Below, piece by piece: positions 174-57,360 of a stretch of DNA of 62,494 nt. Source of the stretch: a virus. The position numbers were made by a program, and so were the translations under genes. Position 1 is the stretch's first letter. Each line of letters begins with the position of its first letter. The notes under the pieces are model-generated. The model ran no database searches. It was not told the origin of the DNA and was given only the letters and a program-made list of their open reading frames with translations. The stretch covers positions 1-62,494 of the IMG/VR virus record IMGVR_UViG_3300009151_000076. One strand, 5' to 3'.

Positions 174-272
174 GTGATAGTTTTTCTTGTGTCAGGAAAA
201 CTACCAAACCCCGCATACGCAGCCCATCCCACTTTTCGCGTATGGCGGAGGCAGCTATCTGTGGGTCTGCCT
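174..272. ncRNA. Structured RNA-like element, copy 1
   Basis: A 42-base stretch (174-215) is repeated exactly at 599-640, and the rest keeps the fold. Hairpin A pairs 178-184 with 197-203. Stem B pairs 211-220 with 238-248 (10 pairs, one bulged G at 244). Stem C pairs 249-254 with 267-272. The loop of B holds CCCAC (228-232) and the loop of C holds GTGGG (261-265), which can pair as a kissing loop or pseudoknot. Stem sequences differ from copy 2 while pairing is kept (stem C AGGCAG/CTGCCT here, TGGCGGG/CCCGCCA there). The strand is undecided: the stems work on both, but most neighbours are minus. It overlaps the last two bases of the gene at 271-552. No known family recognised. Confidence 0.6.
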
Positions 273-552
273 ATTTGGTCAGCGTGGATGGATTTGAGCT
301 TGGAGGATTAAAATAATTTTTAATTGCATTAGCAGCTTGTTTTCCATATTTAGCACCATAAATGGCCCCTGCACCAGTAGCTAATGGCTCAGTCACAGGA
401 GCGGCTGGTCCACCTAGTGAACCTACAGCAGCACCTAAAGCAGCACCTGCAGCCCCACCCACTACTTTACCGGCTGTTGTGACGACATCATCGTCATCAT
501 CATCTTCATCAACTATTTTTTTTGTTTTAGCAAATTGTTTAAAACTTTTCAT
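271..552 (-). CDS. Small glycine-zipper protein with capsid-targeting-like N-terminus
   Basis: About 93 residues. The start is placed at the second Met because GGAGA sits six bases before it and a late promoter (574-581) ends only about 20 bases upstream; a Met four codons earlier overlaps that ribosome site. The N-terminus MKSFKQF resembles the capsid-targeting leader of T4 internal head proteins (MKTYQEF type). A run of Asp/Glu follows (residues 16-22), then a Gly/Ala-rich segment (about 28-78) with a GxxxG pattern that could insert in or perforate a membrane, and a short polar tail. I infer a virion internal protein, perhaps ejected with DNA. The family is unknown. Both flanks carry copies of the structured repeat. 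Confidence 0.6.
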   Translation of the reverse strand: MKSFKQFAKTKKIVDEDDDDDDVVTTAGKVVGGAAGAALGAAVGSLGGPAAPVTEPLATGAGAIYGAKYGKQAANAIKNYFNPPSSNPSTLTK

Positions 553-573
553 GTTGATCTCCATGTTTCAGTT

Positions 574-581
574 TATTTATA
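574..581 (-). promoter_or_regulatory. T4-type late promoter (TATAAATA)
   Basis: Exact TATAAATA on the minus strand, about 22 bases before the start codon chosen for the gene at 271-552. This is the -10 element read by gp55-bound RNA polymerase in T4-like phages, and gp55 is encoded at 17886-18446. It implies a very short leader and late expression. Confidence 0.7.
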
Positions 582-598
582 AAACTAAAACTTGATTA

Positions 599-705
599 GT
601 GATAGTTTTTCTTGTGTCAGGAAAACTACCAAACCCCGCAGCGGCAGCCCATCCCACGTTTCGCCCTGGCGGTGGCGGGTACAATTTCCACTAGTGGGCC
701 CGCCA
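599..705. ncRNA. Structured RNA-like element, copy 2
   Basis: Same architecture as the element at 174-272. The first 42 bases are identical. Stem B has CCGC 636-639 with GCGG 669-672 and GGC 643-645 with GCC 663-665, with a poorly paired middle. Stem C pairs 673-679 with 699-705 (7 perfect pairs). CCCAC (653-657) in loop B can pair with GTGGG (694-698) in loop C. The inner C-G pair of stem B in copy 1 (218-240) is G-C here (643-665), and stem C has several compensated changes, so selection on structure is likely. If it is transcribed on the minus strand, a late-like AATAAATA (710-717) would start RNA right at stem C. It lies between tRNA-Lys and the small head-protein gene. Confidence 0.6.
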
Positions 706-709
706 TATG

Positions 710-717
710 TATTTATT
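710..717 (-). promoter_or_regulatory. Variant late promoter (AATAAATA), tentative
   Basis: AATAAATA on the minus strand, one mismatch from the late consensus, placed so that transcription would begin at or next to stem C of the structured element at 599-705. It abuts the CCA end of the tRNA-like gene. One-mismatch octamers are common in AT-rich DNA, so position is the main support. Confidence 0.35.
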
Positions 718-792
718 GGTCCGGGCGGTAGGATTCAAACCTGCGACAAAGAGATTAAGAGTCTCCTGCTCTACCAACTGAGCTAAGTGTCC
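717..792 (-). tRNA. tRNA-Lys(CTT)-like gene with an unpaired acceptor stem
   Basis: On the minus strand the D arm, anticodon arm (loop CTCTTAA, anticodon CTT, Lys), T loop TTTGAAT and an encoded CCA are all present. The 5' acceptor half is GGACACT but the 3' half is CGCCCGG: only one of seven positions pairs. The T stem has one further mismatch (C/A). The two halves look as if they came from different tRNAs. It may be a pseudogene, a recombinant, or the 3' half could be an attachment-type match to a host tRNA. Without repair or editing it should not be a good substrate for maturation. Confidence 0.65.
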
Positions 793-1160: not shown

Positions 1161-1248
1161 TGGTGGGGAGGGTTGGATTCGAACCAACTGCGTATCTATG
1201 TGCCGGATTTACAGTCCGGTGCCCATCCGCCATCTGAGCAGCCACCCC
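1161..1248 (-). tRNA. tRNA-Tyr(GTA)
   Basis: Minus strand, 88 bases including an encoded CCA. The acceptor stem GGGGTGG/CCTCCCC has one T-T mismatch at the fifth pair. The anticodon loop holds GTA, a long class II variable arm follows (expected for bacterial tRNA-Tyr), and the T arm GTTGG-TTCGAAT-CCAAC is perfect. It looks functional, in contrast to the tRNA-Lys-like gene at 717-792. A structured RNA candidate begins about 30 bases upstream. Confidence 0.93.
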
Positions 1249-46198: not shown

Positions 46199-48760
46199 TT
46201 ACGCTAGAGTTCCATCTGCAGTGAATACGTGCACTACGTTGGCTCCGACTATGTATGTGTTACCGCCGCTAAACAGCTGTGGTAATGGATATGATATGAC
46301 GACTATACCAGATCCACCGGTGTTTGCAGGAAGTGAAGTATTTGTATTACTAAAACCACCGCCACCACCGCCACTACCAGTATTTATAGCACCTGCAGTA
46401 GATGACTGATTGTTGCCAGTAGAGTTACCACCAGATGAACCAAAGACGCCTGCGCCTTGGCCACCAACACCCGAAGATCCACCAGCCCCTGGCTGAAAGT
46501 TTGTTGTAGTATTACCCTGACCTGATGGAGTATAATCGGTACCACCACCTCCACCTGCAGCATAGATAACTGATGTACCAGTTATAGAACTAGATACACC
46601 GTTACCACCCGGGCCTCCGATGCCAACTAAAGTGTTATTAAATGATCTTGTCTGGGATGCATCACCGCCATTGGCAGAAGCTCCTCCTCCACCCGCAGCT
46701 GACCTATTAGCAGTAAGTGAGTTCCACGAACCACCTCTATTACCCTGACCTAATGTATTAGCACCGCCTGTCATACTAGCATTAAGAGAAGTACCAGCTG
46801 CACCACCACCAGAACCACCTTGATAACTTACCGGTGTATCATAACTCGAACCCGCACCACCACCTATCGCAGTATAACTACCAAATACAGAGTTTGTTCC
46901 GTTTGCCCCTACCGCACCACCACTTCCTACAATTACAGAATAAACAACCCCTGTTAATAAGTTAGCAGTTGAGTTAACAGATATTAAGCCACCAGCACCG
47001 CCTCCTCCGGTACTTATAGAGCCATTAACAGATCCGCCACCGCCACCGCCAGCAACTACTAGCACAGAGGCCCCGGTAACTAGCTGTCCTTTCTGGTATG
47101 TGACTTCATCGAATATACCGGCTACCTGAAAGTTACCGTTGGGATAGAGTCTATTTGCAATATTTACAGATGAGTTAGCTAGAAGACCACCTATAGGGAT
47201 CGTGTACCCACCAGGTACAGTAGTATTTGACACCGCATTAAAATTATTAATCGTGTATTGATTAGGACTATTGTCTATGATAGTAGCCGACTGACACGTA
47301 AGTAAGGCAGTGTTAGGTACTTTGTAAAGTGGAAATACGGGCGTAAAGTTACTATTATATATCGCTACTCCATTTACAAGTCTCGTATTGGATATATTAC
47401 CTACAAAATACTGTGCGCTAATGATAGCATTAGCAGTAGATCCTATAAGCCAAGGCGATGTACCACCGCCTATTGAAGTTAAATTAATAGTATTACTTGC
47501 AACTAATACTCCGTCAAGGTACAGCTGTAGGGTTGTATTTGTTCTAGTAACAGCGGCATGGTGCCAAACATTATTTGCAATGATAGTATTAGAGAACAGA
47601 GAGGTATAAGAGGGACCAGCCGAATTACCGACAAAGCAGTTAATAGTATTTGCGTCAGATGATCCTGGCTGGTTTCCGGAACCAAAAGCGCCTATGACTA
47701 GAAAGAATCCATCAGACCAAGTAGAAGATCCTGGGTTAACATCCTTCGATATTATTGGGTGAACACTATTACTTGTTCCCTGCCAATTGAACCACGTCTC
47801 GACCGTCCAGTTTGACTGCGAACTGTTTAATAGGTCTATAGATCCGTTGGCAACATATGGCACTGATATGTACGAGTTACTGCCGGTAAAGTAGTCACTA
47901 TAAGATGCGCCTGCTACAGTCGTCGGTATCACCTCATCAAATAAACCTTTAATCAAAAAGTTACCGTTACTATAGACTTTTGAAGATGTACCAATAGAGA
48001 CAGTTACGTCATTTGATAGTGCAACCAGAGATGTATTGACATTCGTGGTAGTTATGTTTAACGGACCTACGTCAGAGACTGGTAGGGATTTATATGCTGA
48101 TAGATAATACTGAGTGTTAGCTGAACTGATATTAGTGGTAATTGTCGAGGGTGTAAAGTTTGCTGAATATTTCACGCCTTTTGATATAGAGTAATTTGCT
48201 ATAGCTAAAGGGCCACCGACAGTCAGCGTTGTTAAGTTACTAGCAGCGTGTGTACCAATAAGTGGGGTGATGTTAGGATTACTAGTAACAAAGGATAAAT
48301 TTCCAGTCTGGGTACCGGTAACACTGAGACCGTTTATATAAGTCGCAACAGTTGTTCCATTAAATGTCATGGCCATGTGATTCCACACACCAGGAACAAA
48401 AACACTATTAGCGGTTATATGCTGTAGAGCAGGTGTAGCAGTTAAATTATATACGTTGAGTGTTATTCTGTTATTTACATTTCCATCAAGACGTATGTCG
48501 GCTCCTGTAGGATTTGCTAAAGCAGTAAGATAATCAGAAAATAAAAATGAAGCAGTTGTATTAGAAGACTTGTTAAACCAAGTTTCAAATGTCCACGTTT
48601 GACCATTTGATAGAAGATTAAGAGAGGCATTTGCCAGATATATAAAGCTGTTGGCCGCGGGTCCGCCGCCGACACCTATGGCATAAGTTAAATTTACCTC
48701 ATCGAGTATACCCGATACGGCAAAGTTACCATTACTAAAAACTTTAGAAGTTGTAGCCAT
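46199..48760 (-). CDS. LamG-domain fibre protein with Gly-rich C-terminal domain
   Basis: 853 residues. N-terminus SKVFSNGNFAVSGILDEV is repeated later (SKVYSNGNFLIKGLFDEV and NRLYPNGNFQVAGIFDEV), marking three successive modules. Two concanavalin/LamG-like lectin domains follow: around residues 55-200 (WTFETWFNKSSN) and 285-470 (NWTVETWFNWQG ... WHHAAVTRTNTTLQLYLDG). The last module (about 560-853) is Gly-rich (VLVVAGGGGGGS ... GGAGG), like the adhesin at 36400-37779. A receptor-binding, probably glycan-binding, fibre. Its ATG overlaps the stop of the giant fibre. Confidence 0.82.
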   Translation of the reverse strand: MATTSKVFSNGNFAVSGILDEVNLTYAIGVGGGPAANSFIYLANASLNLLSNGQTWTFETWFNKSSNTTASFLFSDYLTALANPTGADIRLDGNVNNRITLNVYNLTATPALQHITANSVFVPGVWNHMAMTFNGTTVATYINGLSVTGTQTGNLSFVTSNPNITPLIGTHAASNLTTLTVGGPLAIANYSISKGVKYSANFTPSTITTNISSANTQYYLSAYKSLPVSDVGPLNITTTNVNTSLVALSNDVTVSIGTSSKVYSNGNFLIKGLFDEVIPTTVAGASYSDYFTGSNSYISVPYVANGSIDLLNSSQSNWTVETWFNWQGTSNSVHPIISKDVNPGSSTWSDGFFLVIGAFGSGNQPGSSDANTINCFVGNSAGPSYTSLFSNTIIANNVWHHAAVTRTNTTLQLYLDGVLVASNTINLTSIGGGTSPWLIGSTANAIISAQYFVGNISNTRLVNGVAIYNSNFTPVFPLYKVPNTALLTCQSATIIDNSPNQYTINNFNAVSNTTVPGGYTIPIGGLLANSSVNIANRLYPNGNFQVAGIFDEVTYQKGQLVTGASVLVVAGGGGGGSVNGSISTGGGGAGGLISVNSTANLLTGVVYSVIVGSGGAVGANGTNSVFGSYTAIGGGAGSSYDTPVSYQGGSGGGAAGTSLNASMTGGANTLGQGNRGGSWNSLTANRSAAGGGGASANGGDASQTRSFNNTLVGIGGPGGNGVSSSITGTSVIYAAGGGGGTDYTPSGQGNTTTNFQPGAGGSSGVGGQGAGVFGSSGGNSTGNNQSSTAGAINTGSGGGGGGFSNTNTSLPANTGGSGIVVISYPLPQLFSGGNTYIVGANVVHVFTADGTLA

Positions 48761-51700
48761 TATCCAAATACCGTGTCAAGTGATCCTGTAGTTGCGTTAT
48801 AGTACGTGTATGCTTGGTTAGCCCCTGTAGAGTTAGCAAAACCGACACGAGCTGCTGTATATATGTTACCGTTTGCGCCTATCCCACCAAGAGTAGTGAT
48901 GGCCCCAGAGTTGGAGTTGACTGACGCGGTCGTGTTGGTGAAGGCATAGCTTGATGCCAGATTGACTGAACCACCACCCGTTGCTGTCGACCAGTAAGCG
49001 TTGCTGCTGCCGTTTGAGGTTAATACCTGACCCGCAGTTCCGTTCGAGCCGTTGAGCTGAACCACACTGTTCGCGCCAAGTATACCGTTATGCGTGGTTG
49101 TATTGCTGAACGATATTGTATTTGTGAAGGCATACTGAGCGGCTACGTTAACTGACGCTGCACCAGGTGATGACCAATAGACGTTGCTCGTACCGTTTGA
49201 CGTTAAGTATTGACCGGCTGTGCCTGAGTTACCACCAGCAATAACTGCGGCATTTACTGTCAAGTTAGCAGTGTGTAATGCTAAGTTACTAAATGTAACA
49301 GTATTACTATATGACTGTGTTCCATTATATGTAAAGTTTGCAGTCGTATTGACAACGTTTGTTAATGCAGTGCTAAGATAAGTGTTTGTAACAAATGTAG
49401 ATAAGCCATAACCACCAAAGTATAGTGAGTTGTTTGACGTGCCGCTGAATGACGTAACAGTACTATTAGTGCTTATTGCGGCGTTGACTGTGGCACTACC
49501 AAACGTGATAGTATTACTAAATGTAGTTGTATTACTAAAAGTTTGTGAAGCATTTAAAAGTGCTATGTTTGTATTAGTATAGGCAATTGCGTTGGCATAT
49601 GCTTGTGCAGCATTACCTGAATAAGCAATTGCGTTAGCATACGCTAGTGCAGCGTTGCCAGAATACGCAATGGCATTGGCATAAGCCAGTGCTGCGTTGC
49701 CAGAATAAGCTATCGCGTTGCTGTAGGCGTTGTCGGCCTTATTACCTGCATACGTGACGGCGTTGCTGTATGCGTTGGCAGCTTTATTGTCTGCATAAGT
49801 TACTGCATTGGCATAAGCCAGTGCTGCGTTGCCAGAATAAGCTATAGCATTTGAGTAAGCATTTGATGAGCGATCGATGAGTTGCTGTGCCGTGTTACCA
49901 TTCAGTGTCGACGAATCGGTAGCAATAGTTGACCAGTAAACGTTGGCTGTGCCATTAGACGTAAGAACTTGACCGGCTGTACCTTGGCTGCCAGTAGAAT
50001 CATAGACCGATATACCAGGATTAATCTTAACATTCGCGTTAAGCGAGAGGGCAGTGTTTGTGCTAGGAAGAGGCCCATAAGTTCCTGCATTTAATACGCC
50101 GCCGTTATTTGTCGTAACAATGCTATATAGCCCAGCATCAGTGAAAACGTTGCTAGTAAAGAGAAGTATCTGGGTGCCGGTAATTGCAGTTAGATGCGTC
50201 GTTGGTGGTGTAAATCCAGAAAGCGAGTAGACTGTATTACTGGTAGTAACTCTGAAGTCTATTATCTTATATGAACCAGCGCCGCTTGTTGTTGAATAGA
50301 ACTTCAAGCCGCCAGTATTAAGTGTACCGTTCTGTGTAGCACCACCGCTACCACCCTTACCGCCGTGTGTAGGTGTAGCAGTTGGGGTTATAAATGTGCT
50401 GCTGGTGTACCACGTTGCAGGTGAACCATCCACGAACAGGTATGTCTGGCTACCAGTACCAATATAAGCTATGTGATGCCAAGTGTTTGCAGCTATGCTA
50501 AACCCACCGGCATATTCAGTGACATACGCGTAGTTTCCAATATACGCGCCATTATTAGCAATTTGGAAAACAAGACCATCTGGGCTTGGAGCTAATAGAA
50601 CTGAAGTAGGCGTAGTATTAGTTGTAGGGAAGTTAACCCAGAATTCTAAGCAGTAACTATTGCCAACGCTGGATACTGTATTAGAGAAACCAGCTGTAAG
50701 ATTAGCAGTTCCAGTGAAGGAAAATACGTTGGCCAGTGTTAACGACGTGGTATTTACAGTCAGCACATTAGTAAGATATGCGTTACTAACATATGCATTA
50801 CTTAGCGCGCCGTTAAGATATATCGAGTTATTAGACGTACCGCTAAACGATGTTACACTGCTATTTGTACTTATTATTGCATTGACGGTGGCATTACCAA
50901 ATGAGATTGTGTTACTGAAACTCTGAGTATTAGTCCAAGCATATTGTGCAGCAACGTTCGTGTTGATAAGCTGTGTGCCGCCAACATAAAAACCAGTGGT
51001 ATTGATAAGAGCATTTGATGTGTTATTACCGACAAATATTGTTGTTAAGTTGGCAGTAAGACCACCTGTTCCAGTTGTCGTCAGAGATCCACCACCCATT
51101 GTGAGAGTGGTAGGTGACAGTGTAGAGTTGACCGTGTTGTTACCCATAGATAACAGGTTATTAGCAAATGCCAGAGTGCCTGTGCCGGTTGTAGCCGCGG
51201 TGCCACCGGTTATCTTGATCTCAGAGTTAACTGTAACGTTTGCAGCAAATGTGTGTATATTTGTCCAAGCGTATGTGGCGTCTACGTTAACAACAGCCGC
51301 GGCGGGTGATGTCCAGTAAGGAGCTCCAGTGTCGCCGTTGCTCGTCAAGAAGTATCCGAGAGTGCCGTTGCTTCCTGTTAGTGCTATAGCACCATTGATA
51401 GCTAGAGTCGCATTAGTCTGTACGTTACCGGTAAATGTTGTTCCAGTCTTGAGCGCTATGTTTGTATTAGTATATGATATAGCATTTGAGTATGCATTAT
51501 CAGCTTTATTACCGGCATATGTTACGGCATTCGAGTAGGCATTTGATGAGCGGTCAATAAGTTGCTGAGCTGTATTGCCACCGAGTGTTAACGCGTCTGT
51601 GGATGCAGATGACCAGTAAACATTAGCAGCACCATTAGATGTGAGAACTTGCCCAGCAGTACCCTGGCTGTCAGTCGAGTCATAGATAGCAATTCCTGTA

Positions 51701-54700
51701 TTAATTTTAACGTTAGATGTAAGTCTTAACGCAACGTTTGCACTAGGAAGCGGACCCACGACTGTAGGGGTTACAGTACCACCATTATTTGTAACACTCA
51801 GGCTATATGGACCGGCATCCGTGAAAGTATTGCTCGTGAATAGCAATACTTGGGTTCCGGTTATAGATGTCAGGTGCGAGGTCGGGGGTGTAAATCCAGA
51901 AAGCGCGTAGACTGTATTGCCTGTAGTAATTCTAAAGTCTATTATATCAAAAGCGCCGGCACCAACAGCATATCCTGACGAGAGACTTAAAGGTGAAAGT
52001 GCTAATATACCATTCTGTGTATAGCCACCCTGTCCGCCCTTACCACCATGTGTAGGTGTCGCAGTCGGAGTAGCATAAGAGTTACTAGTATACCATGTTG
52101 CACGAACACCGTCTACATAGAAGTACGTGTAGTTGCCAGTGCCTATATAAGCATAGTGGTGCCAAGTATTAGCTGCCACATTAAATCCACCTGGGAATTC
52201 TGTCGTATAGCCACTTTCTGAGATGGTAGCACCATTGTTTGCAATAGCTATTTGTAGTGAGCTAACACCGCCAGTAGTTATATTTGTAGCACTACTATTA
52301 GTTGTGGCAAATCTAACCCAGAATTCTAAGCAGTAACTATTACCGACACTCGTGACAGTATTAGCAATAGTGACTCTAACGTTAGATGTACCGCTGAGTG
52401 AGAATACGTTAGCAAATGTCTCGGAACCAGTCTGTACATACATTGACTGGGTAAGGTACGAGTTACTAACATATGCGTTAGGATTTAAACCGTTAAGGTA
52501 CAGTGAGTTATTGGCTGTTCCAGAGAATGCCGTTGAGTTAACAACAGAGTTAACTGTTGAGTTACCAATTGTAAGACCAGATACGTCTAGAGTTACACTC
52601 GCAGTAGTATTTGATATAAACACACCATTATTAGATATGTCTGTATTAACAGTAGTATTACCAATCGAGAGGTTACCAACGGTTACTGCAATCGAGTCTG
52701 CTGAAAGATCAGCAGCCGTAGACATAGATGTCCAGTACGCGCCACCAGTACTATTTGATGTTAGAACCTGCGCGCTAGTACCGATGGATCCATTAGCAAT
52801 AATATTTCTAATATAAGCATTAGACCATATTCTGGTTGCAGCACCAAGATTTAAACTATTCGTACTAGGCGTGATATTGACGTTAGACTGCCAAGAAGTT
52901 GTTGGATCATCAAACACAAGGTTAGCCGATGTGCCAGCCACGATACCGGCGCCATCTGTCAACATACTATTGGCTGCACTATTTGCAAAGATGATGTTAA
53001 GATCGTTTGTAGTTATCACTGTCGAGTTGACAAACGTAGTAGTTCCGGCAAGGATAAGATTACCAGTAACTGTCAGGTTTTTATCGATAGTAACGTTGCC
53101 AGTAAACTTAGTAGATGTCGTATTAAATGCCGTGCTGTTAATTGTCGTATTAACAGTAGAGTTACCAATCTTAAGCTCGGAGCCGGTGAAAGAACCACTA
53201 TTGACATAGAAACCATTTGTATTAGCAGAAATGTATACAGTTCCGTTACCTGCATAGAATCCACTGTCATTTGCAGTAAAGCCGCCGCCTTGGTCTGAAG
53301 GATTAACAGCTGTGATATATGGGCTGTTGGCACCGATAGAGAAGTTCATATAGTTAGAGCTATTACCTAACTGTATAAATGAGGTGTTAACACTGAATAT
53401 ATTAGAGCCTAAAGCAAAAGAACTACCTTGCGGGAAGTATGCAGTTCCTCCACCACCACCGTTACCCATGTGGTCATTAAATCCAAGACCAAAGAATGGT
53501 CCGACACCGGTGGATCCACCTGGATTTTGAGCAATGAATATATCAAGGGCGGTCGTGCCGTTTGTTATATAAACTGATTGGTTATTAACAGTGACATTTG
53601 TTGTACTTGCTAGGCCACCAACAGTTATGTCATTATTAACAATACTATGGTTGGCGTAGAGGTTATTAGTCTTTACGTTAGATGCCGTAATAGGTGGAGA
53701 CGCGCCGTTGATATAGAAGCCAGTAGTATTAGCTACCACATTAGATGTAGTATTACCAGCATAGAATCCTAACTCATTTGCAGTAAAACCACCTCCAGCA
53801 GAATCTGGGATTACAAACTTAATAGATGGGTTATTATTAACAGACAAGTTCATATAGTTGGTAGTATTACCTAACTGCATGAATGATGTATTAACTATGA
53901 ATACATTCCAGCTTACGCCAAAGCCACCACCCTGTGGGAAGTATGCCGTAGATCCTCCTGGGCCTTGACCTACACGGTTATCAAATCCAATAGTAAATAG
54001 AGGTCCCGCGTTTGTGTCAGGAAGCATCATGAAGCTATACTCATGGGAGCTACCATTTGACATGCGGAATATAGAAGAGTTAACAACTGTATTGACAGTA
54101 TTACCTATAGACAAACTACTTAAATTTAATGTAGTAGATGTTAGAGTATTACTGATAAAGATACCAGTATTAGATATATCGGTGTTATTAGTAGTATTAC
54201 CAATTGATAGATTACCAACACTGATAGTCATGGCGTCAGCTGCTAGGTTACCTACACCTGTTCCCCAGTATACTCCGCCAGTTGAGTTAGTAGTTAGTAT
54301 CTGACCGTTTGTTCCAGCTGCACCGTTAGCAATAAGCTTGCTAACAGATACATTTGTAGTAGCTAGACTATTACTATTAATTGTCGTGTTGACAGTTGAG
54401 TTACCTATAGCAATTGTAGATAAATTTACTGTCGTTGTTGACGTAGAGTTACTAATGAAGATACCAACATTAGACATGTCAGTGTTAACTGTAGAATTAC
54501 CTATCGATAGGTTACCAACACTGATAGTCATAGCAGATGCGGCTAAGTTACCAACACCGGTTGACCAGTATACTCCACCGGTCGAGTTGGTAGTTAGTAT
54601 CTGACCGTTTGTTCCGAGTGATCCGTTTGCAACCAGAGTATTTGCAACTATATTAGCGTTGAATACGACATTACCGGTAAATGTAGTGCCTGCCTTGAGG

Positions 54701-57360
54701 GCATAGCTTGCAATATCTACAGCAGGTGACCAGTATGGAGAACCAGTTGAGCCATTTGATGTCAGTATTTGACCAGCAGTACCATTGCTACCATTTGCAT
54801 TTAATGGAATACCAGATATTGTAACTCTCGAATTATTAGCAACAAACTTGGTGCCGACAGAATGAGTGGCTGCGTTTACTGAGCCACTAGTGAAAACACC
54901 AGCAGTATTTGCAGAAGTATAGTTACTAATAGTAAATGGAGATAGTGATGAATATGATGGTGTACCCGATGCAGTTATAGTAATCGGAGTATAGTTAGAA
55001 TTAGTATCTGTGAGATATGTATCGGCTGTAGTTTGTAAGAGAAGTAACTCAGTATAAGCGATCGTACTTAATGGTAATATCGATGGAGTAAAGTTACTTG
55101 TATAAACAGGAACAGACCATGTATATCTGATATTAGAGATATAACCATTAAAATATGTTGAGTTCATTGAACCGGCAATGAACGTAGTATCTGAGAAAGT
55201 ATAGTTAGTTGAAGTAGTGGCGACCGATGTACCATTAATATACAGCGTTAATGTGCCAGAATTTCTAACCAGCGCTACGTGATAAAAGTTATTAATAGCC
55301 GGAGGATTATAATAGGTGATAATATCACCAGCATTGTTTCTTACACCCCATCTAGCATTATTAACATATAACCAGAATCCAGTATTAGTTCCATCGCCAT
55401 TCATTAATGAGATAACGCCAGGAGTATCACCACTACCGGCAAGGCTGCTAGCTCTAATCCATGCTTCCATGGTAAAGTCGCCGATACCCGCTGCTCCGGT
55501 ACTAGTTCCAGGAGAGTGTGTTACTGTACCAGTGATGTAAGAGTTCGAACCGTTAAAGGCTATACTTCCACCAGCTGATATGCTTATATTAAGACCGGCC
55601 GTATTAAACGAGGTCGTATAGCCAGCTCCAGTAGCAGACATGCCCGAAGTATTAGTTGTAGAATTAACAGTCGAGTTACCGGTATTAAGGCCAGATAAGT
55701 TTAATGTCGTACTAGATGAAGAATTCTGAATGAATACTCCATTATTTGATACGTCAGTATTAGCTATAGTATTACCAATCGATAAATTACCAGCGCTGAT
55801 AGTTATGGCATCTACTAAGAGATTGGCTGAACCTGTTCCCCAGTACACACCACCGGTCGAGTTGGTAGTTAGTACCTGACCATTAGTTCCAAGAGCACCG
55901 TTAGCAATAACAGTTTTAACTGTGACATTAGTAGTTTTTATACTATTGCTATTTGCCGTAGTATTAACAGTCGAGTTACCTATTGCGAATGTGGCTATAT
56001 TCAGTGTCACAGTAGATGTTGTATTACTGATGAATACACCGGTATTAGATATGTCGGTATTGACAGTCGAGTTACCAATAGATAGATTACCGACACTAAT
56101 AGCTATAGCTTCTGCAGATAGGTTGCCCACACCCGCAGACCAATATACTCCGCCGGTTGAGTTAGTTGTCAGTACCTGACCATTAGTTCCAAGATAGCCA
56201 TTTGCTACTATAGTGTTAGCAACTATATTGGCATTAAATGTGACATCACCGGAGAAAGTTGCTCCCGTCTTAAGAGCAATACTTGTATTAGTGTAAGCTA
56301 TAGCATTTGTGTAAGCAGTAGAAGCTTTACCATCTGCATAAGTTGCTGCATTGCTATAAGCAGTTGCCGCTTTAGTATCTGAATATGTTCTTAGTGTCGA
56401 GGCACTATTTCCATTAAGATAACTGGCGTTATTGGCAGTACCACTAAATGTTGTAGAGTTGATCGTTACATTTACGGTCGTATTACCTAGTGCGAAGGTA
56501 GATAGATTTAATGTAGTCGACGTTGTACTATTACTGATGAATATGCCAGTATTAGACATGTCAGTATTATTAGTAGAATTACCTACCGAGATATTTCCAC
56601 TCGTGACAAAGATAGACTGTGCAGATAGATTACCTGTATTAATAGAGGCGGTTATACTTGTCCAATATACGTTACCGTTACCATTTGATGTTAGGAACTG
56701 ACCAGCAAGTCCAGAGTTTCCACCGGCTATGATTGCGCCATTGGCTACTATGTTAGCAGTGTGTGTTACTGTACCAGTAAAGGTCGTGCCAGTCTTGAGT
56801 GCGATGTTTGTATTAGTATAAGAGATCGCATTGCTATAAGCATTGTCGGCTTTATTGCCAGCATATGTTACCGCGTTACTATAAGCATCAGCCGCCTTGT
56901 TGTCGGCATATGTTGTGGCATTCGAGTACGCCTGAGCAGCATTTCCTGAATAAGCAATTGCATTACTGTAGGCATTTGCAGCAGAAAGGTCAGCATAAGA
57001 GATAGCATTACTGTAAGCATTGGCCGCTTTGTTATTTGCATATGCTAGTATTGTAGATACGCTATTTCCACCCAGATAGCTACTGTTATTTGATGTTCCA
57101 CTAAATGTTGTTGAGTTAATAGATACATTGACAGAAGTATTGCCGACTGTTATTACTGAGCTATTGACAAATACGTTGGCATTAAAAGTAGCCGTGCCGC
57201 TGAACGATGATACATTGATCGTGGCGTTATTAATCGTGGCGTTAGAGATTGTCGAAGACTTGGATACGATCTTCCATATATACTGATCGGCGAACCACTG
57301 GTAAGTGTATCCATTGGTCGTATATAGTTCACCGTTAGCGGTAGGGGTTGGAAATGACAT
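48760..57360 (-). CDS. Giant 2866-residue tail fibre protein
   Basis: Largest gene in the window. The N-terminus FPTPTANGELYTTNGYTYQW is an attachment-type domain. Long alpha-helical stretches of AYSNAITYADNKA-type 11-residue repeats flank beta shafts of GNSTVN units. Three LamG-like lectin domains are visible, near residues 590-800, 1640-1870 and 2200-2430; the last two are close duplicates. Recurrent linkers read NGQxLTTNSTGGVYW. The chain ends SLDTVFG. Such length implies a very long side fibre or a multi-domain receptor spanner. AGG precedes the start; the stop overlaps the next gene by one base. Confidence 0.85.
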   Translation of the reverse strand: MSFPTPTANGELYTTNGYTYQWFADQYIWKIVSKSSTISNATINNATINVSSFSGTATFNANVFVNSSVITVGNTSVNVSINSTTFSGTSNNSSYLGGNSVSTILAYANNKAANAYSNAISYADLSAANAYSNAIAYSGNAAQAYSNATTYADNKAADAYSNAVTYAGNKADNAYSNAISYTNTNIALKTGTTFTGTVTHTANIVANGAIIAGGNSGLAGQFLTSNGNGNVYWTSITASINTGNLSAQSIFVTSGNISVGNSTNNTDMSNTGIFISNSTTSTTLNLSTFALGNTTVNVTINSTTFSGTANNASYLNGNSASTLRTYSDTKAATAYSNAATYADGKASTAYTNAIAYTNTSIALKTGATFSGDVTFNANIVANTIVANGYLGTNGQVLTTNSTGGVYWSAGVGNLSAEAIAISVGNLSIGNSTVNTDISNTGVFISNTTSTVTLNIATFAIGNSTVNTTANSNSIKTTNVTVKTVIANGALGTNGQVLTTNSTGGVYWGTGSANLLVDAITISAGNLSIGNTIANTDVSNNGVFIQNSSSSTTLNLSGLNTGNSTVNSTTNTSGMSATGAGYTTSFNTAGLNISISAGGSIAFNGSNSYITGTVTHSPGTSTGAAGIGDFTMEAWIRASSLAGSGDTPGVISLMNGDGTNTGFWLYVNNARWGVRNNAGDIITYYNPPAINNFYHVALVRNSGTLTLYINGTSVATTSTNYTFSDTTFIAGSMNSTYFNGYISNIRYTWSVPVYTSNFTPSILPLSTIAYTELLLLQTTADTYLTDTNSNYTPITITASGTPSYSSLSPFTISNYTSANTAGVFTSGSVNAATHSVGTKFVANNSRVTISGIPLNANGSNGTAGQILTSNGSTGSPYWSPAVDIASYALKAGTTFTGNVVFNANIVANTLVANGSLGTNGQILTTNSTGGVYWSTGVGNLAASAMTISVGNLSIGNSTVNTDMSNVGIFISNSTSTTTVNLSTIAIGNSTVNTTINSNSLATTNVSVSKLIANGAAGTNGQILTTNSTGGVYWGTGVGNLAADAMTISVGNLSIGNTTNNTDISNTGIFISNTLTSTTLNLSSLSIGNTVNTVVNSSIFRMSNGSSHEYSFMMLPDTNAGPLFTIGFDNRVGQGPGGSTAYFPQGGGFGVSWNVFIVNTSFMQLGNTTNYMNLSVNNNPSIKFVIPDSAGGGFTANELGFYAGNTTSNVVANTTGFYINGASPPITASNVKTNNLYANHSIVNNDITVGGLASTTNVTVNNQSVYITNGTTALDIFIAQNPGGSTGVGPFFGLGFNDHMGNGGGGGTAYFPQGSSFALGSNIFSVNTSFIQLGNSSNYMNFSIGANSPYITAVNPSDQGGGFTANDSGFYAGNGTVYISANTNGFYVNSGSFTGSELKIGNSTVNTTINSTAFNTTSTKFTGNVTIDKNLTVTGNLILAGTTTFVNSTVITTNDLNIIFANSAANSMLTDGAGIVAGTSANLVFDDPTTSWQSNVNITPSTNSLNLGAATRIWSNAYIRNIIANGSIGTSAQVLTSNSTGGAYWTSMSTAADLSADSIAVTVGNLSIGNTTVNTDISNNGVFISNTTASVTLDVSGLTIGNSTVNSVVNSTAFSGTANNSLYLNGLNPNAYVSNSYLTQSMYVQTGSETFANVFSLSGTSNVRVTIANTVTSVGNSYCLEFWVRFATTNSSATNITTGGVSSLQIAIANNGATISESGYTTEFPGGFNVAANTWHHYAYIGTGNYTYFYVDGVRATWYTSNSYATPTATPTHGGKGGQGGYTQNGILALSPLSLSSGYAVGAGAFDIIDFRITTGNTVYALSGFTPPTSHLTSITGTQVLLFTSNTFTDAGPYSLSVTNNGGTVTPTVVGPLPSANVALRLTSNVKINTGIAIYDSTDSQGTAGQVLTSNGAANVYWSSASTDALTLGGNTAQQLIDRSSNAYSNAVTYAGNKADNAYSNAISYTNTNIALKTGTTFTGNVQTNATLAINGAIALTGSNGTLGYFLTSNGDTGAPYWTSPAAAVVNVDATYAWTNIHTFAANVTVNSEIKITGGTAATTGTGTLAFANNLLSMGNNTVNSTLSPTTLTMGGGSLTTTGTGGLTANLTTIFVGNNTSNALINTTGFYVGGTQLINTNVAAQYAWTNTQSFSNTISFGNATVNAIISTNSSVTSFSGTSNNSIYLNGALSNAYVSNAYLTNVLTVNTTSLTLANVFSFTGTANLTAGFSNTVSSVGNSYCLEFWVNFPTTNTTPTSVLLAPSPDGLVFQIANNGAYIGNYAYVTEYAGGFSIAANTWHHIAYIGTGSQTYLFVDGSPATWYTSSTFITPTATPTHGGKGGSGGATQNGTLNTGGLKFYSTTSGAGSYKIIDFRVTTSNTVYSLSGFTPPTTHLTAITGTQILLFTSNVFTDAGLYSIVTTNNGGVLNAGTYGPLPSTNTALSLNANVKINPGISVYDSTGSQGTAGQVLTSNGTANVYWSTIATDSSTLNGNTAQQLIDRSSNAYSNAIAYSGNAALAYANAVTYADNKAANAYSNAVTYAGNKADNAYSNAIAYSGNAALAYANAIAYSGNAALAYANAIAYSGNAAQAYANAIAYTNTNIALLNASQTFSNTTTFSNTITFGSATVNAAISTNSTVTSFSGTSNNSLYFGGYGLSTFVTNTYLSTALTNVVNTTANFTYNGTQSYSNTVTFSNLALHTANLTVNAAVIAGGNSGTAGQYLTSNGTSNVYWSSPGAASVNVAAQYAFTNTISFSNTTTHNGILGANSVVQLNGSNGTAGQVLTSNGSSNAYWSTATGGGSVNLASSYAFTNTTASVNSNSGAITTLGGIGANGNIYTAARVGFANSTGANQAYTYYNATTGSLDTVFG
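49860..50870 (-). repeat. LamG module, second copy inside the giant fibre gene
   Basis: Encodes VGNSYCLEFWVNFPTTN to the linker NTAQQLIDRSSNAYSNA. It aligns over its whole length with the module at about 51540-52510 (VGNSYCLEFWVRFATTN), including the shared HHxAYIGTG, PTATPTHGGKGG, GFTPPT and LLFTSN stretches. Edges are approximate. Confidence 0.8.
51540..52510 (-). repeat. LamG module, first copy inside the giant fibre gene
   Basis: Partner of the module at about 49860-50870. Proteins agree closely in the core and differ in the loops (GGVSSLQIAI against APSPDGLVFQI), as expected for a duplicated lectin domain under diversifying selection. Edges are approximate. Confidence 0.8.

Follow-up and report, generated by a model that had tools for sequence, protein, structure and literature searches.

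The window, that is, the whole stretch of DNA that was analysed, is a 62,494-base virus record of T4-like type, with a clamp loader that is 64% identical to that of Stenotrophomonas phage DLP_6 and 59% identical to that of Methylophilales phage Melnitz. It carries two copies of one element, at 174-272 and 599-705, which share 42 identical bases (GTGATAGTTTTTCTTGTGTCAGGAAAACTACCAAACCCCGCA), as a sequence-only reading of the window had reported. A minus-strand ORF of 97 amino acids (271-564) lies between them and touches hairpin C of copy 1 with its stop codon; the product is glycine-zipper-like, with a weak Gly-zipper match (E 0.045). Between this ORF and copy 2 stands the box TATAAATA (574-581, minus strand), which we take to be a T4 late promoter motif, in line with the earlier description of one small late gene flanked by the copies. 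On the other side of copy 1, the 3' end of a plus-strand ORF (1-162) converges on the element, with its stop codon about 12 nt from hairpin A. The copies adjoin a tRNA region, also as described before: tRNA genes stand beside them, and a tRNA-Tyr(GTA) found by ARAGORN (1161-1248, minus strand) lies upstream on the RNA strand in the same region. Elsewhere in the window, a highly repetitive minus-strand ORF of 2866 codons (48760-57360), with many repeats of 24-300 nt, probably encodes a tail-fibre protein.

Read on the minus strand, the element consists of hairpin C, hairpin B, the linker GGGGUUU and hairpin A, and it measures about 95-125 nt across the family. In copy 1 (RNA 5' end at 272), hairpin C spans 272-249, hairpin B 248-211 and hairpin A 205-176. 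Stem C pairs 249-254 with 267-272, stem B pairs 211-220 with 238-248 around a single bulged base at 245, and stem A pairs 176-186 with 195-205; CCCAC at 228-232 forms a pseudoknot with GTGGG at 261-265. In copy 2 (RNA 5' end at 705), hairpin C spans 705-673 with a longer loop, hairpin B 672-636 and hairpin A 630-601, with stem C at 673-679/699-705 and the pseudoknot between 653-657 and 694-698. The three stems and the CCCAC/GTGGG loop-loop pairing proposed from the sequence were found in both copies.

The same architecture recurs in the relatives. Hairpin C has 5-6 bp and holds a 5-nt pseudoknot strand in its loop, 1 nt after the 5' arm; the remainder of this loop is variable and often contains a fourth hairpin. 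Hairpin B consists of CCG, one bulged base and about 7 bp, with the loop GAAA(N)-pseudoknot-AUGGGCU, and pairing of the hairpin C and hairpin B loops gives a 5-bp pseudoknot. The hairpin A loop, CCYGACACAA, is near-invariant. In L009, L013, L016, L021 and L063, an intrinsic terminator, perfect or nearly so (AGCCCGCTTCGGCGGGCTTTTTTT), lies in the hairpin C loop on the RNA strand.

A covariance model built from 19 members of the family (R1) matched the window at two places only, 164-278 (E 9.2e-32) and 589-711 (E 1.9e-29). Among these 19 close relatives, both partners change at 11 pairs, with 53 double-change cells compared to 15.8 after shuffling, and the pseudoknot is invariant. An alignment of 63 diverse RNA-strand sequences gave 95.5% paired cells (75.3±0.7% shuffled) and 287 double-change cells, a number that was reached by 0 of 500 shuffles (88.7±11.5 expected). 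The covariation score was 0.597 versus 0.193, 13 pairs showed double changes, and pairing collapsed to 34-49% when partners were slid by 1-3 columns. Hairpin A contributed 66 double-change cells compared to 19.9 shuffled. The pseudoknot, with strands placed by offset and not by fit, was 98.1% paired in this set and all five of its pairs covary. Distant members contain 12 different fully Watson-Crick pseudoknot sequences, such as CCCAC/GTGGG, CCTGT/ACAGG, CTCCG/CGGAG, CTTGT/ACAAG, CTAGT/ACTAG and TCCCT/AGGGA. Double-change cells are not independent events, but up to six pair types occur per pair, and a handful of ancestral changes could hardly account for such variety. The pairing-preserving changes first noticed in stem C and the inner part of stem B were confirmed and are seen throughout the family. 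A lack of further homologues with covariation had been named as the refuting result; such homologues exist, with strong covariation that includes the pseudoknot. The observation is thereby confirmed, and its reading as a functional folded RNA is supported.

The strand of the RNA was examined by counting pairs that are not Watson-Crick. G-U pairs are tolerated in RNA, and the other strand mirrors them as A-C. On the tRNA strand, such cells comprised 20 G-U versus 6 A-C in stems B, C and the pseudoknot, and 24 versus 9 in hairpin A, giving 44 versus 15 in total on the window minus strand. Because of this excess of G-U and the co-directional gene context, the RNA likely reads on the minus strand, and a plus-strand RNA was rejected on the same counts and context. 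The fold drawn in the sequence-only reading was correct in its structure but used the plus strand. The T-G pairs that never vary at the hairpin A tip, an early hint of the plus strand, can be read equally well as loop.

Relatives were collected from IMG/VR by exact-pattern scans, which successively returned 5, 35, 18, 85 and then at least 120 contigs; a variant of the hairpin A loop pattern added 22 further contigs. R1 confirmed 69 matches in the loci searched first and, in the set that followed, 77 strong ones. Because the scans require them, the pattern letters (GTGTCAGG, AACCCCG, CAGC and others) show no variation among scan matches; plasmid copies and matches to the second pattern reveal variation in one or more of them (CCTGACAC/CCCGACAC). 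When the GC-rich member L131 was used as blastn query, five copies on plasmids of Alphaproteobacteria were identified: one each in Azospirillum, Skermanella and Methylobacterium, and two on plasmids of Paracoccus yeei. Carriers of this plasmid form include P. yeei plasmid pYEE7 and Methylobacterium oryzae. With seven element queries, blastn gave no convincing match among INPHARED phages; one query produced only short matches, covering at most 30% of it, in its terminator stretch. A GTDB pattern scan, with a pattern too tight for plasmid-type members, gave a single match (L100) that the model did not confirm. The carriers sampled are mainly large phages, with some plasmids. One copy per record is the rule; the window has two, and so has isolate contig 2582580766. 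A Betaproteobacteria-type permuted tmRNA (RF01850) lies upstream of the element in L139, L164, L130 and L124, which hints at the hosts.

In its usual settings, the element stands beside co-directional tRNA or RNA-metabolism genes. Among 108 unique copies, 25 begin 2-9 nt after a co-directional tRNA and 41 begin at most 30 nt after the stop of a CDS; in 17, located within tRNA operons, a co-directional tRNA starts 7-12 nt past the end of the element. Four loci (L015, L039, L144 and L153) have tRNAs on both sides, and in none of the 108 is the nearest tRNA on the opposite strand. A gene for a DUF2828 protein lies within 2.5 kb in 30 of 130 copies and stops at most 15 nt 5' of the element in 27 of these, and a calcineurin-like phosphoesterase gene is found within the same distance in 34 of 130; all 64 of these neighbouring genes are co-directional with the element. 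On the downstream side features vary, and no co-directional gene follows directly at copy 1, L001, L012, L026, L035 and L036.

Some copies may have a promoter of their own. A TATAAT-like box stands directly 5' of hairpin C in 17 of 65 non-tRNA copies (4.5 in control windows) and the late box TATAAATA in 5 (0.4 in controls). This enrichment is modest; coding sequence is more frequent in the control windows, and intergenic DNA is rich in A and T. TATAAT-like boxes on the opposite strand beside hairpin A are about equally frequent (15/65). Plasmid copies carry -10-like boxes (TATGAT in L206, CATAAT in L207), and L124 has TATAAATA. These boxes are suggestive of an own promoter at hairpin C in plasmid copies and some phage copies.

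Three observations concern the 5' side of the element. The preceding tRNA is called with anticodon CUA, an amber suppressor, in L188, L136, L150, L179 and L210, and is often the only tRNA of the locus. About 100 nt 5' of the element, L031, L040, L041, L077 and L095 share a conserved gcgaagatc...gtttgtggctctaactttgttatCCACGTTCGC, possibly a second structured RNA. In L131 and L208, a small CSCWMCGNPRR protein without Pfam or NCBIfam match is encoded upstream, near the element.

The two copies in the window are each preceded by the 3' end of a different tRNA. Copy 1 directly follows a tRNA-Pro 3' remnant (TCAAATCCATCCACGCTGACCA; 273-297, minus strand), in which CAAATCCATCCACGCTGACCA is identical to the 3' end of the tRNA-Pro that precedes the element as a whole gene in L035. 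Fused in frame to the 97-aa ORF (a gene-tRNA fusion at 271-300, minus strand), this remnant now supplies its C-terminal codons. Copy 2 directly follows a tRNA-Lys(CTT)-like gene (712-786, minus strand) with a foreign acceptor 3' half: an acceptor stem test and comparison with L129 showed that 1 of 7 acceptor pairs forms. The Rfam tRNA model scores 41.3 bits at 728-785 on the minus strand, and ARAGORN misses the gene. This chimeric tRNA is probably a recombinant remnant and may be non-functional. Hairpin C of copy 2 and its flank are closer to L129 than to copy 1. Because different tRNA 3' ends precede the two copies, a tRNA 3' end plus element seems to travel as one mobile unit, and the sequences point to separate tRNA-linked origins; the 42-nt identity may be due to later gene conversion. 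The element is indeed present twice, as the word duplicated had implied, but not by simple local duplication.

When three diverse members were compared with Rfam 15, only chance matches appeared, even with the limit relaxed to E≤10, and only tRNA reached the gathering threshold in the window, which agrees with the initial view that no known riboswitch or ribozyme is present. No description of the motif was found in the open-access literature; it may have been described elsewhere. A riboswitch or other cis-regulator upstream of a gene was rejected as unlikely because the family has no consistent downstream gene and genes converge on copy 1. Kinship with tmRNA was likewise rejected: R1 matched tmRNA 3' hairpins at E 0.01-0.1, and a model of hairpin A only gave a non-significant E of 1.5-8. 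The 3' hairpin of the permuted tmRNA loosely resembles hairpin A, but the element contains neither a tag sequence or reading frame nor a tRNA-like domain, and separate tmRNA genes exist in some loci. A candidate antisense target of the hairpin A loop, a 12-nt match at window position 54012, was discarded since this tail gene is read from the minus strand, in the same sense as the RNA.

Other phage RNAs share the location of the element. The T4 RNAs rnaC and rnaD (species 1 and 2) are small RNAs that also lie beside co-directional tRNA genes (AF158101); they are still described as late RNAs without a known function (PMC9697503). T4 rnaC ends in a tRNA-like T-arm motif, which the element lacks, and in the T4 tRNA region R1 gave no match up to E 10. 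GOLLD and ROOL are structured RNAs, likewise without a known function, that phages carry close to their tRNA islands (PMC12286853); they are several hundred nt long, compared to about 95-125 nt for the element, and are set apart by the missing Rfam match. For T4 rnaC/rnaD, the Y RNAs and the theta ribozymes (see below), membership fails on a tested feature in each case. We rate the element, as far as sequence features tell, as a new RNA class with a putative function.

Our main reading, to which we assign a probability of about 0.55, is that the element is a free-standing structured noncoding RNA, made from tRNA and RNA-metabolism transcripts or from its own promoter, that would act in trans as the RNA of a ribonucleoprotein. 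From the fold, covariation, strand preference and context we infer the following course of expression, processing and action with a partner. Transcription would proceed on the tRNA strand, i.e., minus in the window. In phages, the element would usually be one cistron of a tRNA/RNA-metabolism transcript and could be released by cuts at the 3' end of the preceding tRNA and the 5' end of the following one; in plasmids and some phages, transcription would start at hairpin C from its own promoter. The hairpin C loop would then pair with the hairpin B loop, followed by folding of hairpin A, and the RNA would serve as scaffold, adaptor or decoy, with the conserved loop nucleotides as a putative binding surface. 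A cis-regulatory role is disfavoured because copy 1 lies between two convergent genes and the plasmid copies are intergenic. Against this reading of a free-standing RNA is that no single partner gene is common to all carriers. Furthermore, the perfect terminator in the hairpin C loop of the L009 branch would shorten transcripts on the RNA strand; transcription may mostly end at this point, or else the hairpin has been co-opted. A cis role at the 5' edge of the element, tightly tied to the 3' end of the preceding gene, is possible.

Such a cis role is the core of one alternative, in which the element stabilises or ends the upstream transcript, i.e., a tRNA precursor or a Ro60-like or phosphoesterase mRNA. 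With 66 of 108 copies starting at most 30 nt from the end of an upstream gene and intrinsic terminators following soon after in several loci (e.g., L064, L080 and L097), the location fits. However, conservation is far above what a stability hairpin would need, the plasmid copies and some of those in phages carry a promoter-like box with no gene that they could protect, and the 17 copies directly before a co-directional tRNA in tRNA operons do not suit a 3' end element; we hold this explanation to be quite unlikely. An RNA that generates tRNA 3' ends, either as a self-cleaving ribozyme like phage theta ribozymes or as a processing signal, would occupy the same niche, for theta ribozymes are pseudoknotted and abut phage tRNA 3' ends, suppressor tRNAs included (PMC10879173), as the 25 tRNA-adjoining copies do, several of them behind the amber-suppressor tRNAs of L188, L136, L150 and L179. 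High nucleotide conservation, a pseudoknot core, the HDV-like order P1-5', P2-5', hairpin, P1-3', ..., P2-3' and CGAA before the last strand also speak for it. On the other hand, HDV ribozymes form a nested double pseudoknot with an unpaired C in J4/2, whereas the equivalent C of the element closes hairpin B in 63/63 rows, and the strand between P1-3' and P2-3', the would-be P4 and catalytic-C strand, pairs outside, 3' of P2-3', in the strongly covarying hairpin B. The element thus lacks both the P4 of HDV and an unpaired catalytic C, its P2-like strand lies inside hairpin B, and an HDV/theta ribozyme was rejected because the topology fails. In addition, the element has an extra conserved hairpin A, many copies stand behind protein stop codons or alone on plasmids, and an Rfam ribozyme match was not found. 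A self-cleaving class other than HDV/theta is possible; overall we consider ribozyme or processing-signal activity unlikely.

The fold might alternatively act at the DNA level, as a folded single-stranded site or as a mobile cassette that lands at tRNA 3' ends and whose fold serves a recombinase. Covariation is also compatible with folded ssDNA, each copy in the window comes with the 3' remnant of its own tRNA species, and locations are varied. The one-strand G-U bias, the fixed orientation to tRNAs, the promoter-like boxes and the rule of one copy per genome argue against this, and no common recombinase was noticed beside the element; we regard it as very improbable. RNA is favoured over ssDNA because the unit occurs in tRNA operons and promoter-like boxes lie upstream of some copies. 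A more specific proposal is that of a Y-RNA-like adaptor, in which the RNA would attach to the DUF2828/DUF7788 ring protein, either gating it or linking it to a nuclease; in Deinococcus, a Y RNA tethers Rsr to PNPase. The neighbouring protein matches PF11443, PF25043 and phrog_850 ('RNA-binding protein'), and the four best PDB matches of its AlphaFold model are all Ro60/TROVE structures: 9kop, 9l5y (Ro60 of Thermus phage phiLo), 2nvo (Deinococcus Rsr) and 9nen (human). The model, with a pLDDT of 70 that is only moderate, predicts a Ro60 fold. In 27 of 130 copies, across differing pseudoknot sequences, the element starts 1-12 nt after the DUF2828 stop, like bacterial Y RNAs (YrlA/YrlB) after a co-directional Ro60-like gene, and the rsr-yrlBA operon has this same gene-then-RNA order (PMC7790460). 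The identical gene order makes a Y-RNA-like role with the Ro60-like protein attractive and plausible in one branch. Most copies, however, have no Ro60-like protein nearby. The gene was not found in element-bearing records of 104, 157 and 158 kb, which may be incomplete, and DUF2828 as a universal partner was rejected on this ground; branches without it would have to use a host protein or have the gene elsewhere. Conversely, among 682 INPHARED records with DUF2828 homologues, the element was not found at six examined loci of named phages, nor did blastn retrieve a convincing copy from that collection. The paired 5' and 3' ends of a bacterial Y RNA form its Ro-binding stem, whereas the element starts with hairpin C, ends with hairpin A and has no long-range end pairing; neither ARAGORN nor Rfam called a tRNA in it that could correspond to the tRNA-like module of YrlA. 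As a general explanation, the Y-RNA-like adaptor is tentative at best.

Well-supported new classes of structured RNA are rare, and this element combines covariation in every stem and the pseudoknot with occurrence in at least 120 phage contigs and in plasmids and no relative in Rfam 15. A wider, rather doubtful proposal is that the class belongs to mobile elements of Betaproteobacteria-type phages and Alphaproteobacterial plasmids and, by acting either as a decoy or within a Ro60-like ribonucleoprotein as its RNA, would protect phage-encoded tRNAs and translation from RNA-cleaving host defences; it might be an anti-defence or RNA-repair RNA that moves with tRNA 3' ends. The position in tRNA operons offers a handle on the role of unexplained small RNAs in phage tRNA clusters, such as T4 rnaC/rnaD, and the position beside Ro60-like genes on which RNA, if any, phage Ro60 proteins use. 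With a single defined RNA and a single protein in hand, both questions become open to direct test.

L116 (2989-3324), which is Synechococcus phage BUCT-ZZ01, L118 (3391-3505) and L120 (3395-3637) carry tRNA-like genes of 113-121 nt a short way downstream of DUF2828/Ro60-like genes. In L116, the anticodon region of two such genes contains a common insert of about 40 nt. These genes are possible Y-RNA-like RNAs or intron-bearing phage tRNAs.
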